Positions 51,914 through 57,447 of a DNA stretch of 64,000 bases are shown piece by piece. Source of the stretch: Desulfatibacillum sp. (lineage in GTDB: Bacteria; Desulfobacterota; Desulfobacteria; Desulfobacterales; Desulfatibacillaceae). The position numbers were made by a program, and so were the translations under genes. Position 1 is the first letter of the stretch, and the number at the start of each line of letters is the position of its first letter. Below the pieces are notes generated by a model. The model did no database searches, was not told the DNA's origin, and saw nothing but the letters and a program-made list of their open reading frames with translations. Location of the stretch: contig JAEINP010000007.1 of assembly GCA_016342355.1 (NCBI GenBank), positions 62,001-126,000 on the forward strand, given 5' to 3'.

Positions 51914-52568
51914 ACCGGGCATCTTCATCACCCTGGAAGGCATAGAGGGCGCAGGAAAAACCACTCAGGTCCGCCGCATTGTGGAATTCATGGAATCTCA
52001 AGGTTTTGAATGCATTGCCACCCGGGAGCCGGGAGGAACCGATATCGGGGCTAAAATCCGGGCCATATTGCTGAATTCGGAACATATCACCCTGGCGCCC
52101 ATGGCAGAGCTTCTGCTCTATGAGGCGGATCGAGCCCAACACCTGGCCCGTTTGGTCAAGCCTGCCCTGGAGACCGGCAAATGCGTAATTTGCGATCGTT
52201 TTTGCGACGCCACTACCGCATACCAGGGGCACGCCCGAGGCCTTTCCCTGGATTTTATCAACGGATTGCACGCCCAGATTCTGGAAGGGCTGGCGCCGGA
52301 CTTGACCTTGCTTTTTGACCTTCCCGCTGAAATCGGGCTGACACGTGCAAGGGCGAGACTGGACGCACAAAACAGCACTGGCCTGGAAGGCCGTTTTGAG
52401 GCCGAGGAACTGGCCTTTCATCAAAAGGTTCGAAAAGGCTACCTGAGCCTGGCGAAAGATGCGCCAGGCAGGTTTGCAATCGTTGACGCAGAAGCCCCCC
52501 CGGACCAGGTTTGGGACCAAACAAAGGACTTGCTGGCCAGATTTCTGGCCCAACGGTCCGCAGCATAG
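51906..52568 (+). CDS. tmk: Thymidylate kinase
   Basis: A 220-residue kinase converting dTMP to dTDP. P-loop EGIEGAGKTT, the TREPGGT motif (substrate and DR region), and CDRFCDATTAYQGHARGL match the family; the lid carries TRARARL. AGGA of the upstream gene's end serves as ribosome site. Length is normal. It is translationally coupled to the exoribonuclease gene. Confidence 0.95.
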   Translation: MSRPGIFITLEGIEGAGKTTQVRRIVEFMESQGFECIATREPGGTDIGAKIRAILLNSEHITLAPMAELLLYEADRAQHLARLVKPALETGKCVICDRFCDATTAYQGHARGLSLDFINGLHAQILEGLAPDLTLLFDLPAEIGLTRARARLDAQNSTGLEGRFEAEELAFHQKVRKGYLSLAKDAPGRFAIVDAEAPPDQVWDQTKDLLARFLAQRSAA

Positions 52569-52590: not shown

Positions 52591-54864
52591 ATGGATAGCA
52601 TACTGGACTACATAGGCAACACGCCCCTGGTGGAAATCAGGCATTTGAATCCCAATCCGGCGGTGCGGATGTTCGCCAAGTTGGAGTATTTCAACCCCGG
52701 AGGGTCGGTAAAGGACCGTGTGGCCCTGTCCATGATCGAAGACGGGGAAAAAACCGGTGAACTCACCAAGGATAAAACGGTTCTTGAAGCCACCAGCGGC
52801 AATACGGGCATCGGCCTGGCCCTGGTTTGCGCGGTTAAGGGCTATCGCCTGCTCCTGGCCATGAGCGAATCCGTCAGCGAGGAGCGCAGGAAAATCCTCT
52901 CCGCCCGGGGCGCGGAAATCCTCTTGACTCCCGGTCATTTGAGCACGGACGGCGCCATAGAAGAGGTCTATCGCCTGGTGCGGGAAAATCCCGGCAAATA
53001 CTTCATGACCGACCAGTACAACAACGACGCCAACTGGAAGGCCCATGTGCAGGGCACCGCCCCGGAAATCTGGGAGCAGACCATGCACAAACTTACCCAC
53101 ATGGTGGCTACCATTGGCACCACTGGCACCTGCATGGGGCTTTCCCGGGGATTGAAAGCCCTGAATCCTGCGATTAAAATGATTGGGGTGGAGCCCTACT
53201 TCGGCCATAAAATCCAGGGGTTAAAAAATCTCAAGGAATCTTATGTTCCGGAAATTTTTGACAAAACCGCTTTGGATGAAAAAATATATGTGGATGACGA
53301 GGAAGCATTTGACATGGCCCGGCGCCTGGCAAAAGAGGAGGGCCTGTTTGTAGGCATGAGCTCCGGGGCGGCTATGGCCATTGCATGCAAGAAGGCCATG
53401 GAACTCAAAGAAGGCGTGATTGTGGTTCTGCTGCCCGATTCCGGGGAGCGCTACCTGTCCACGACCCTGTTCGCCGTCAAGGAAAAATCCGGCCTTAACC
53501 TGTACAATACGATTTCCCGGAGCAAGGAGCCCTATATTCCCCTGAAAACGGGAAAAACCGGCATGTACTCCTGCGGTCCCACGGCTAACGAGCCCATGGG
53601 AGTTGGCCATTGCAGGCGATTTGTCTTTGCCGATCTTTTAAGCCGGTACCTCAGCTATAAAGACCTGGATGTCACCCATATCATCAATATCACGGATATG
53701 GATGATAAGACCATCGAAGGCTCCCAGGACGCGGGCACGGGCCTGGAGGAATTCACCCAAAGGCATATTGACCGGTTTATGCAGGATATTGCCTGTCTGG
53801 GCGTCCGCCCTGCCAACGCCTATCCTCGGGCCAGCAACCACATTGACGACATGGTTGCAATCGCCGCCAAGCTGGCCGGGACTGGTTTTGCCTACGAAAA
53901 AATGCGTTCTCTGTACTTTGATATTTCACGCCTTGAGGGATACGGCGATCTTTCCGGTATAGACCTGGATAAAATCCGCCTGGGCGCCACCGTGGACATG
54001 GACGACTACGAAAAGGACAATCCCCGGGATTTCACCCTGTTCAAACGCTCCCGCCTTAATGAATTAAAACGGGGGATTTTCGTCAAAACCGAGTGGGGAA
54101 ACGTACGCCCAAGCTGGCATATCCAATGTGCGGCCATGTCCATGAAATACCTGGGAGAAACCTACGACATCCATACTGCCAGCCGGGATCTTGTTTTTCC
54201 CCATCATGAAAACGAGGTCGCAATCGCCAAAGCCCTCACTGGCAAGCCGCTGGCGCGGTATTGGCTCCATTGCGATCAGGTGATTGTGGACGAAAAGGAA
54301 GCCTGGCCGGAAAAAATCACCCTCCAGGACCTTTTGGACAAGGGATACACAGGACGGCAGGTCCGATTCTGGCTTCTGGCCACCCATTACCGCAAGCCCC
54401 TGCATCTCACCCCTGCCAGCCTGGACAGCGCAGCCAAGGGGCTGGAACGCCTGGACCGGTTTACGGAAGCCCTGCGAATCGCCAATGGCAGGGGAGCAAC
54501 CAATGCGGACGTTGACCAACTGCTGTACGACATCAAACAGGGCTTTACCGCAGCTATGGACGATGATCTTTCGGTTTCAGCTGCTTTATCCGCTCTGTTT
54601 GCGGTGGTCAAGCAGGTCAACCGTTTGGTTTCTCAAAACACCCTGGATGGTGATAGCGCCCAAAAAATTCTGGACGCCCTGGAAAAAATCAATCAGGTTT
54701 TGGGAATATTCAATTTTGATGAAACTCCCCGGGACCCGGAAATCGCCACCCTTTTGAACAAAAGAGAAAATGCCCGGGCCGCAGGGGATTATGCTACGGC
54801 GGACGCCATTCGTGACGAGCTGACAGCCCGGGGAATAACTGTTCGGGACGGCAAAGCCAAATAA
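52591..54864 (+). CDS. Cysteine synthase fused to a cysteinyl-tRNA synthetase-like domain
   Basis: A 757-residue fusion. Residues 1-300 are a PLP cysteine synthase-type enzyme: Lys41 in GGSVKDR, TSGNTGIG, GTTGTCMG and SSGAAMA. Residues about 305-757 are CysRS-like up to the C-terminal DALR region and the ending ADAIRDELTARGI. Zinc and cysteine pocket residues are kept: Cys328, Trp509, Cys513, His538 and Glu542. The HIGH motif is GVGH (337-340), and the KMSKS loop is replaced by a shorter EKEAWPEK (568-575). Aminoacylation is therefore doubtful, and a cysteine-sensing or tRNA-related role may be possible. AAAGG precedes the ATG. Confidence 0.9.
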   Translation: MDSILDYIGNTPLVEIRHLNPNPAVRMFAKLEYFNPGGSVKDRVALSMIEDGEKTGELTKDKTVLEATSGNTGIGLALVCAVKGYRLLLAMSESVSEERRKILSARGAEILLTPGHLSTDGAIEEVYRLVRENPGKYFMTDQYNNDANWKAHVQGTAPEIWEQTMHKLTHMVATIGTTGTCMGLSRGLKALNPAIKMIGVEPYFGHKIQGLKNLKESYVPEIFDKTALDEKIYVDDEEAFDMARRLAKEEGLFVGMSSGAAMAIACKKAMELKEGVIVVLLPDSGERYLSTTLFAVKEKSGLNLYNTISRSKEPYIPLKTGKTGMYSCGPTANEPMGVGHCRRFVFADLLSRYLSYKDLDVTHIINITDMDDKTIEGSQDAGTGLEEFTQRHIDRFMQDIACLGVRPANAYPRASNHIDDMVAIAAKLAGTGFAYEKMRSLYFDISRLEGYGDLSGIDLDKIRLGATVDMDDYEKDNPRDFTLFKRSRLNELKRGIFVKTEWGNVRPSWHIQCAAMSMKYLGETYDIHTASRDLVFPHHENEVAIAKALTGKPLARYWLHCDQVIVDEKEAWPEKITLQDLLDKGYTGRQVRFWLLATHYRKPLHLTPASLDSAAKGLERLDRFTEALRIANGRGATNADVDQLLYDIKQGFTAAMDDDLSVSAALSALFAVVKQVNRLVSQNTLDGDSAQKILDALEKINQVLGIFNFDETPRDPEIATLLNKRENARAAGDYATADAIRDELTARGITVRDGKAK

Positions 54865-54897: not shown

Positions 54898-55890
54898 ATG
54901 AACGCCACATTATTTCCCTATACATACATGACCGATGACGAAATCCAGGCTTTTAACCTGCTTTTCGGGCCGCCCAGGATATACCTGCCTTCGGATCTGG
55001 AAATGCCGCCGTCCTTGAGAGTGGCGCACAGGGAGGGCCTTGTTACATTGGCCTTGCCCCTGGAAGACCAGACCGACCGGAGAATGCTGCGGTCTGTCCT
55101 GGCTGAATGCCGCTCCTGGGCCGGAACCCTGGACCTTAGGGCCGTTGCGGCCCAAGGCGCCCGGGAACCTTTAACGGAAGAGGCCTTTGCAGCCAACATT
55201 CGGGCGTCCATTAAAAGGCAGGCAACATCAACTTCCAAGGGCCAGGAACCCTCGCCGCTTCTGGCGGACCTTGTCTTTTTGCAGATGGCTCAAGCCCTGG
55301 ACACCCAGCATTTTGACGTGGATCTTTCCCTGCGCAAATTCCAGGAAAAAGAAAACAACTTATTTAAGGAACTGGCGGAACCGGGGGAACAGGATGCCTG
55401 CAAACCGGGGATATCTCTATCCAATTCTGATGCACCCAGGGTTCGCAACCTGCCCCGCCGCTTACAAGCATGGTTTCACCTCTTGGAGGGGGATGCCTCG
55501 CCCAACGGATTATATTTTACGGTGGCAGGGGACGCCATGGACTTATTATTGGACAAGACAGATCCTGAACCGTTATCCTTTTATCTGAAAGACTTTCCCT
55601 GGCCCCCTGTTTCGGGAGAGGCGACAGCCCAATGGCAGGAGGCTTTTTCAGGGTGCATGGAGAGTTTTATTACTGGCACGGGAAATGCCGCCCAGGCGCT
55701 CCAAGCCTTGGAGGCCCTGTCGGGTATTCAGGCAGATTCCCATATAAGCGGAATTGACCTGCGGATTGCTTTGATAGAAGAAAATCCGCATGCTTTTTTT
55801 TCCCGCTGCCTGGGAGTCGACACCAACCAAGGGAAAACGCAAAACGTGCAAAACACTGTTCTGGTGTGCCTGGAACACCGGGCAGCCTGA
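54898..55890 (+). CDS. Hypothetical protein (330 aa) of the surE operon
   Basis: Not recognised. A soluble protein with no signal peptide or membrane helix. The N-terminal segment reads YTYMTDDEIQAFNLLFGPPRIYLPSDLEMP, split by aromatic residues, and the middle is helical with a KFQEKENNLFKEL region. The C-terminal half includes RLQAWFHLLEGD and PLSFYLKDFPWPP. It has AGAGA before the ATG and follows the CysK-CysRS fusion by 33 bp and precedes the acyl-CoA synthetase-like gene by 57 bp, so it is in the same transcript. It probably has a role in the same process, but nothing more can be said. Confidence 0.75.
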   Translation: MNATLFPYTYMTDDEIQAFNLLFGPPRIYLPSDLEMPPSLRVAHREGLVTLALPLEDQTDRRMLRSVLAECRSWAGTLDLRAVAAQGAREPLTEEAFAANIRASIKRQATSTSKGQEPSPLLADLVFLQMAQALDTQHFDVDLSLRKFQEKENNLFKELAEPGEQDACKPGISLSNSDAPRVRNLPRRLQAWFHLLEGDASPNGLYFTVAGDAMDLLLDKTDPEPLSFYLKDFPWPPVSGEATAQWQEAFSGCMESFITGTGNAAQALQALEALSGIQADSHISGIDLRIALIEENPHAFFSRCLGVDTNQGKTQNVQNTVLVCLEHRAA

Positions 55891-55947: not shown

Positions 55948-57447
55948 ATGAGTCTGCACAGTTTAGGGGTCTATGAAATTTTCGCCAGGAACGCCCTGTC
56001 TTTTGGCAATGACAACGCGGTTGTTTTTAATCAGGAAAGAATCAGCTTTGACCGGTTAAAGGAACAGGTGGACTCCCTGGCCAACGGCCTGGAAGCCCGG
56101 GGAATTTCCAAAGGAGACCGGATAGGCATCCTGGGCCTCAATACCCACAAATACATGTGGATATTCGGGGCTGCCGCCGCCCTTGGAGCCATTGTCGTAC
56201 CCATCAACTGGCGTCTTGCCACGGAAGAAGTCCGATATATCCTGGAGGACACATCCCCAAAATTCCTGGTGGTGGACAAGGCCTTTGCCGATGTGGGCAA
56301 ACAACTGGAAGGGCAAACCGCCCTTTTGTGTTTTGATCAGGATGTAAACGGCATAGCCTTTTTGGACAGCCTCATGGATAACGCCGCACCCAGGCAGTGT
56401 CAGGGTTTTGGCGATGATCCATTTTGTATCATCCATACAGCCGCCATGGACGGCAAGCCCCGGGGCGCGGTCCTTTCCCATAACAACATCATTTACAGCA
56501 ACATGCAGGGCATCGCCACCATGCAATTGGGAAGGCGGGACGCTTACTTGAACATGCTGCCCATGTTCCATATTACCGGACTTAACCTGAGCATGGCGGT
56601 CATGCACGGGGGAGGCCGGAACATAATCATGGAAAAATTCGATCCGGCCCAGGCCCTTAATCTGGTCCAGGAGGAAATGGTTTCGGTGATTGGCAGTTTC
56701 CCCCCCATTTTGAACAATCTGGAAACGGAATTGGACAATAACCCCAGGGATATGTCTTCCCTGCGCCATGTCCTGGGCATAGACGCCCCGGATACCATGG
56801 CCCGATGGCAGGAAAAAACCGGCAGTATTTTTTGGGCATTATACGGCCAGACCGAAACCTCGGGCATGGTCACCACGGCCAAAAGTTCGGCAAGGCCGGG
56901 ATCAGCCGGGCGGGAGTCCTTGCTTGCCGCCATCAAAATAGTGGATGAAAGCGGAAACCAGGCGCCGATGGGAGTGGCGGGAGAAATTCTGGTCCGGGGT
57001 CCTTTGGTTTTTTCAGGATTTTGGGAGAAGGGGCAAATGTCCCGCCATAGTTTTGACAACGGGTGGCACCGCACCGGAGACCTCGGCAAACTGGACGAAC
57101 AGGGTTTCCTGTGGTTTGCAGGCCGCAAACCGGAAAAGGAGCTCATCAAGCCCGGTGGTGAAAACGTTTACCCCGCCGAGGTGGAGAACGTCATTATACA
57201 ACACCCCGACATCACCGAAGTGTGCGTCATAGGGGTTCCGGACCCCAAGTTCGGTGAGGGAATCAAGGCTGTGTGCGTGTGCCGCCAAGGGTCCTCCCCG
57301 AGTCCCGGAGAAATCATGGACTTTGTGGCGGCCCGTATAGCCCGCTATAAAAAACCGCGTTATGTGAGTTTTGTCGAGGCGCTTCCTAAAAATAAAGACG
57401 GCGAGATCAACCGGATCGAGGTCAAGAGTCAGCATGGCAAGGCGTAA
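55948..57447 (+). CDS. Acyl-CoA synthetase-like (ANL superfamily) protein with altered active site
   Basis: A 499-residue adenylate-forming fold protein. Motifs A5 (YGQTETSG), A7 (RTGDLG) and A8 (GRKPEKELIKPGGENVYP) are intact. Two key elements are not: the P-loop (normally TSGTTGxPKG) reads TAAMDGKPRG at 164-173, and the A10 catalytic Lys (PKxxxGKI) is Glu486 in PKNKDGEINR. Loss of the A10 Lys generally abolishes adenylation in this family while thioester formation may remain. GGGGAAAG precedes the ATG. It could be a binding or ligase-half enzyme rather than a true acyl-CoA synthetase. Confidence 0.88.
   Translation: MSLHSLGVYEIFARNALSFGNDNAVVFNQERISFDRLKEQVDSLANGLEARGISKGDRIGILGLNTHKYMWIFGAAAALGAIVVPINWRLATEEVRYILEDTSPKFLVVDKAFADVGKQLEGQTALLCFDQDVNGIAFLDSLMDNAAPRQCQGFGDDPFCIIHTAAMDGKPRGAVLSHNNIIYSNMQGIATMQLGRRDAYLNMLPMFHITGLNLSMAVMHGGGRNIIMEKFDPAQALNLVQEEMVSVIGSFPPILNNLETELDNNPRDMSSLRHVLGIDAPDTMARWQEKTGSIFWALYGQTETSGMVTTAKSSARPGSAGRESLLAAIKIVDESGNQAPMGVAGEILVRGPLVFSGFWEKGQMSRHSFDNGWHRTGDLGKLDEQGFLWFAGRKPEKELIKPGGENVYPAEVENVIIQHPDITEVCVIGVPDPKFGEGIKAVCVCRQGSSPSPGEIMDFVAARIARYKKPRYVSFVEALPKNKDGEINRIEVKSQHGKA

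Follow-up and report, generated by a model that had tools for sequence, protein, structure and literature searches.

A Desulfatibacillum acyl-CoA ligase homologue that has probably given up adenylation and shares this change with a large family of relatives

Acyl-CoA ligases are usually presented as enzymes working in two steps, and we know of no split acyl-CoA ligase besides PtmA1/PtmA2. PtmA2 of Streptomyces platensis (structures 5upq, 5ups and 5e7q), the partner of PtmA1, was reportedly described in a 2018 paper as non-adenylating, with its first step restored by mutation. PtmA2 is reported as an enzyme of the ANL superfamily that carries out the second half of the reaction only, and it belongs to a natural-product pathway (PMC6594144). 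Its P-loop position reads TAAMSGRQCG, and in its A10 region (LPRTVSGA) the lysine is replaced by alanine. Canonical AMP-forming acyl-CoA synthetases, such as FadD13 (3r44), have the same fold and the same A5, A7 and A8 motifs as the protein considered here, but keep TSGTTGxPKG and the A10 lysine. Fatty acyl-AMP ligases (FAAL) are marked by an insertion of their own and represent the loss of the CoA step, and the half retained in the present protein would be the opposite one. The nearest solved structure, 3ivr from Rhodopseudomonas palustris CGA009, is a putative long-chain-fatty-acid CoA ligase with HTAAVGGRPRGA at the P-loop, alanine in place of the A10 lysine and the hinge insertion GRAPEKELIK. 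A literature search found no function paper for 3ivr, no paper on the family and no assayed enzyme of this branch.

The window, which is the whole stretch of 64,000 nucleotides of Desulfatibacillum DNA that was analysed, contains the following features, all on the forward strand.

52591..54864, +, CysK-CysRS-like fusion, upstream of the ligase-like gene and on the same strand; the ORF opens at 52459 and the start is inferred from relatives
54898..55890, +, 330-aa ORF directly upstream of the ligase-like gene, no Pfam or NCBIfam match
55948..57447, +, acyl-CoA ligase-like ANL protein (499 aa) of the 3ivr family, close to the PtmA2 group
56437..56466, +, A3 / P-loop position, residues 164-173 (TAAMDGKPRG); T164, A165, A166, G169 and G173 invariant in 102/102 family members
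56833..56865, +, A5 motif, residues 296-306 (WALYGQTETSG); G300, Q301, E303 and T304 invariant in 102/102
57058..57084, +, A7 motif, residues 371-379 (NGWHRTGDL); T376 and D378 invariant in 102/102
57109..57183, +, A8 hinge and loop, residues 388-412 (LWFAGRKPEKELIKPGGENVYPAEV), with a family-specific insertion of two residues (395-396) and Lys401
57403..57405, +, Glu486, at the place of the A10 lysine; the family varies freely here (S47, A20, T10, E6, K5 and others, n=102)

Translation bore out what an earlier note had read at this locus, namely TAAMDGKPRG at residues 164-173, Glu486 (ALPKNKDGEINR) and the presence of the A5, A7 and A8 motifs, the last one as GGENVYPAEV. Both hallmarks of a two-step acyl-CoA synthetase, TSGTTGxPKG at A3 and the lysine at A10, are absent from the protein. 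It is a member of the ANL superfamily, with Pfam matches to AMP-binding (PF00501, 2.2e-69) and AMP-binding_C (PF13193, 4.8e-19), both over the cut-off, and with corresponding fold matches. Among the NCBIfam matches listed (25 of 105), no model was over its cut-off, and the top one, PRK06187, reached 397.7 bits against a cut-off of 476. The genome of the window holds 61 stretches matching the protein; among the best 20 of these 61 loci, TAA occurs in the window copy only, and the other 19 have P-loops of the usual type, some of them variant, with the A10 lysine in 18/19.

The match to 3ivr covers the full length (E 8.7e-127), and PtmA2 (5upq) is matched at E 1.3e-67. The AlphaFold model of the window protein (mean pLDDT 90.5) was used for structural matching, in which 3ivr was the top match (Z 55.4, rmsd 1.6, 387 residues) and PtmA2 (5ups) was also matched (Z 45.9, rmsd 3.4, 485 residues). 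These are fold results on a predicted model, and the Z scores do not imply function. 3ivr shares both alterations with the window protein; it is alphaproteobacterial and 35% identical to it in the structural alignment. PtmA2 shares them as well, but it belongs to a neighbouring clade rather than to that of the family, is devoid of the hinge insertion and has AAEN instead of GGEN in A8.

The scan for relatives, performed with one genome per species, gave 534 encoding places; the best 80 of the 534 were used, and nearly all of these are titled Desulfobacterota. A match at 1e-105 or better was present in 36 of the 297 genomes of the phylum that were searched, and one scan of viral contigs found no copy of the family. 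In the first comparison, which comprised the window protein and 29 relatives, TAA was found in 30/30 rows and Lys at position 486 in 0/30. The loci compared encode 128 distinct ANL proteins; 102 of these have TAA and form the family, and the remaining 26 are canonical. T-A-A-x-x-G replaces the ATP P-loop in 102/102 distinct members. The A10 lysine is missing in 97/102 members, whereas it is present in 25/26 canonical ANL proteins of the same alignment. The earlier note had suggested aligning relatives at the two altered sites, and the two changes do go together across the family. Intact homologues with only the window copy changed were also looked for, and the relatives turned out to share the changes. 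The gene is therefore neither decaying nor unique, since the two changes are common to a large family.

The wording of the earlier note has to be corrected in two respects. The loss of the P-loop, which the note had called broken, stands, but the term is too weak, as the P-loop has been exchanged for a fixed motif in 102/102 members. Similarly, the loss of the A10 lysine stands, but the Glu itself was over-read, as it is one of 13 residue types at column 486. With 365/499 columns less variable than this one among the 102 members, the position is under relaxed constraint, Glu being one of the states that it may take, and a special role for Glu486 was rejected. Other positions are strictly kept: beyond the residues listed above for A3, A5 and A7, H208, R393, G403, G404, N406, K468, R489 and K493 are invariant in 102/102 members, K469 and P470 are likewise invariant, and K401 and K397 occur in 101/102 and 100/102, respectively. 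A further feature, which the earlier note had not mentioned, is a pair of extra residues in the A8 hinge (GRK-PE-KELIKPGGEN), present in 102/102.

The gene probably encodes a fatty-acid-activating enzyme in which the first step, the one that uses ATP, has been lost and the second alone retained. Among the readings considered, the likeliest is that the window protein, with its widespread family, is an acyl-CoA ligase that forms the thioester without adenylating. The half-reaction idea is well supported by homology, because both changes are found in 3ivr and PtmA2 and are fixed family-wide; the earlier note had likewise favoured a half-reaction or ligand-binding ANL protein, a proposal with which the family-wide double change and the same two changes in PtmA2 agree. 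The alignment showed that the family has lost the parts predicted to handle the beta and gamma phosphates of ATP and to drive adenylation (the P-loop and the A10 lysine). The parts predicted to hold the AMP moiety or to support thioester formation have been kept, namely the A5 Glu, the A7 Asp, the hinge Arg, the A8 GGEN and Lys401. The A5 Glu, the A7 Asp and the hinge Arg are the residues usually credited with holding AMP, and Lys401 was compared with the A8 lysine through the GrsA motif. By inspection, Lys401 appears to match the A8 lysine which is reported to stabilise thiolation (PMC11253843). This pattern of loss and retention fits that expected of a protein accepting acyl-AMP and CoA. Lys at position 486 in 5/102 family members counts against the half-reaction reading; the five members that have the A10 lysine despite a TAA loop are those of loci L080, L082, L103, L117 and L119.

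In the proposed mechanism, acyl-AMP produced by another enzyme would be bound by the family protein, which would take up CoA and move the acyl group from acyl-AMP to it, as in the second half of the two-step reaction. The source of acyl-AMP would be an adenylation-competent ANL enzyme, in many relatives presumably the synthetase of an adjacent Liv-type transporter operon. A candidate source in Desulfatibacillum is the synthetase about 16 kb downstream.

The neighbourhood survey comprised 100 loci, of which 7 had no recognised family gene and the other 93 were merged to 85 distinct loci. The family gene precedes a same-strand acyl-CoA synthetase gene of about 640 aa and Liv-type transporter genes at 13/85 loci and follows them at 9/85. 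At 4/85 loci the synthetase lies on the opposite strand, at 5/85 a different ANL gene (about 530-550 aa) is near, at 3/85 there are Liv genes only, and at 51/85, some of them on short contigs, no ANL or Liv neighbour was found in the called genes. Two gene orders recur, with names read from the sequences and no profile search: family-LivG-synthetase-LivH-LivM-LivK-LivF-USP and LivG-synthetase-LivH-LivM-LivK-LivF-(USP or lipoprotein)-family. A Liv-type ABC operon with an embedded acyl-CoA synthetase gene and a small LEA2-like lipoprotein gene (L066:1648-9340 and similar) is recurrent in Desulfobacterota. A separate count of ANL proximity covered 98 loci, from which L079 was left out and the remainder merged to 89; another ANL ORF lies within 8.5 kb of the family gene at 35/89 loci, at 31 on the same strand. 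As a background, the share of the window's own genome within 8.5 kb of an ANL gene is about 13%, a value from a single genome with 44 ANL places, and the comparison of 35/89 with about 13% gave a binomial p of 7e-10, with loci that are not independent. Presence of the family was also compared with that of the Liv-operon synthetase, the latter scored as positive at a match of about 1e-170 or better, in 60 genomes: both occurred in 25, the family only in 7, the synthetase only in 2 and neither in 26 (Fisher p 1.6e-8, genome relatedness ignored; the family genomes G050 and G052 were assigned by E-value and identity, with motifs unread).

The Liv-operon synthetase belongs to the ANL superfamily and shares an operon with the family gene in many genomes, but it is a candidate partner and not a functional homologue; it has about 640 aa, intact adenylation motifs and an altered A8 loop. 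In 24 synthetases at no less than 69% identity, A3, A5, A7 and the A10 lysine are essentially invariant, five A8-loop positions vary comparatively strongly (column ranks 443 to 627 of 642), and the second A8 Gly is changed to Asp or Asn in 8/24. In a group of 19 synthetases at 40-45% identity the loop reads LxDG and the second A8 Gly is kept in 19/19, and TAGGKN stands at the place of this loop in three ordinary synthetases that are about as long. A complementary loss of the CoA step is therefore suggested by the motifs of the group at or above 69% identity only, and not for the group to which the Desulfatibacillum synthetase belongs. Since the latter group retains the second A8 Gly throughout, the Desulfatibacillum partner may be a complete two-step enzyme with no need of a helper. 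The adjacent synthetase is mostly absent in the window's own subgroup. In D. alkenivorans, the Liv operon starts about 15 kb and the synthetase lies about 16 kb downstream of the family gene; in the genome of the window, the matching Liv operon is carried by contig C68, whose expected place, judged from synteny, is after the window's contig. It is tentatively proposed that a split acyl-CoA ligase may exist in anaerobic Desulfobacterota, in which the Liv-operon synthetase would adenylate an imported acid and be losing its CoA step, and the family protein would make the thioester. By analogy, such complementary losses, as reported for PtmA1/PtmA2 in an antibiotic pathway, might here, though this is doubtful, have arisen in general metabolism and in many lineages.

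Four loci (L112, L113, L107 and L130), from Deltaproteobacteria MAGs and relatives, have the family gene directly after a canonical ANL gene of 547-552 aa, with thiolase-like and OB-fold-like genes after it and Liv-type genes upstream; the operon is of another type, but the pairing is similar in kind. Among the annotated plasmid copies of the PtmA2 group, 5/7 (M. branderi, R. oxybenzonivorans, Massilia, R. jostii and Sphingomonas; loci L188, L189, L191, L193 and L194) lie no more than a few genes from an AMP-binding gene, either of the phenylacetate-CoA-ligase family or another one, and the Rhodococcus DMU1 and Novosphingobium plasmid copies have no AMP-binding neighbour within the stretch examined. 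The copy from Polaromonas belongs to the 3ivr clade, and a canonical gene for cyclohexanecarboxylate-CoA ligase follows it two genes later.

Other explanations of the protein differ in how much of the catalytic cycle they leave to it. It could be a complete acyl-CoA synthetase with unusual residues, in which another lysine replaces the A10 lysine and the TAAxxGxPRG loop still holds ATP. Suitable lysines are invariant or nearly so (K397, K401, K468, K469 and K493), the A5 Glu and the A7 Asp are intact, and more than half of the surveyed loci offer no ANL or Liv neighbour. However, the Ser/Thr/Gly-rich P-loop is replaced in every family member, and PtmA2, with the same two changes, is reported to catalyse the second half only (PMC6594144), so that a complete synthetase is unlikely. 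At the other extreme, a non-catalytic protein binding acyl-AMP or acyl-CoA might regulate or scaffold a neighbouring acyl-CoA synthetase or transporter. The loss of adenylation residues and the operon tie to the Liv-type transporter and synthetase in many relatives would suit such a role, but it seems improbable in view of the conserved A8 GGEN, hinge Arg, Lys401 and KKP before A10, which are expected of a working thioester-forming enzyme.

AMP-forming synthetases of syntrophs can run in reverse, and the protein might convert acyl-CoA back to acyl-AMP so that the partner synthetase could make ATP out of AMP and PPi, or it might join acyl-AMP to some nucleophile in place of CoA. The ANL superfamily does include enzymes with a different second step (PMC6594144), but the CoA-side A8 loop is fully kept, and this explanation is very improbable. 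The chance that the gene is merely decaying is negligible: two textbook motifs are altered, but the frame is open, the identity to the D. alkenivorans orthologue is 83%, the same changes occur in all relatives and most other motif columns are invariant. Decay was rejected on account of this family-wide conservation.

With regard to the upstream genes, the earlier note had seen an operon of two adenylate-forming enzymes, the ligase-like protein and the CysRS-like domain, each deprived of residues for using ATP. In most of 60 genomes, across the order, the CysK-CysRS-like fusion is matched over its full or nearly full length, and the genome of the window also has a normal CysRS, separate from the fusion. 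KMSKS and an intact HIGH are absent in the 11 fusion copies from other genomes that were compared, as in the window copy, and HHENE and CGPT are kept in the copies compared. The fusion looks like a conserved non-charging synthetase paralogue joined to cysteine synthase. The argument from paired enzymes fails, since the fusion was not seen adjoining the family gene outside Desulfatibacillum among the loci examined; the fusion and the 330-aa ORF adjoin the family gene only in the two Desulfatibacillum genomes among these loci, and a conserved operon of two degenerate synthetases was rejected. The neighbour that does recur is another ANL enzyme, that of the Liv-type transporter operon. In a Desulfopila locus (L103), a member of the fusion's cluster lies a few genes from the family gene. 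The cluster of the 330-aa ORF holds Desulfatibacillum copies only, among the loci clustered.

The descent of the family relative to PtmA2 depends on the columns used. With the motif columns, PtmA2 is sister to the family with support of 99/90, and without the A3, A8 and A10 columns the support for this grouping is 90/35. Rows L101, L123 and L128 fall inside the family on the tree. A wider tree added plasmid-borne relatives, eight of the PtmA2 type (from Rhodococcus, Mycobacterium branderi, Massilia, Sphingomonas, Novosphingobium and Nonomuraea) and one of the 3ivr clade (Polaromonas); all eight PtmA2-group rows carry TAA and lack the A10 lysine. In this tree, the TAA rows group with one long canonical row at 99/96, and the TAA rows alone have 37/0. 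One origin of the family and PtmA2 is compatible with the data, with a support that drops once the motif columns are removed.

If the proposed function is true, the solved structure 3ivr, for which the literature search returned no description, would be the structure of such an enzyme, and many genes annotated as long-chain-fatty-acid CoA ligase would be misannotated. The five family members that combine the A10 lysine with a TAA loop would serve as natural controls for whether the lysine alone permits adenylation. If the family works in the proposed way, split acyl-CoA ligases would be widespread in environmental bacteria, and the paired operon genes would lend themselves to asking why the two steps are kept apart in cells, for which channelling of reactive acyl-AMP, coupling to uptake or reversibility are candidate reasons.
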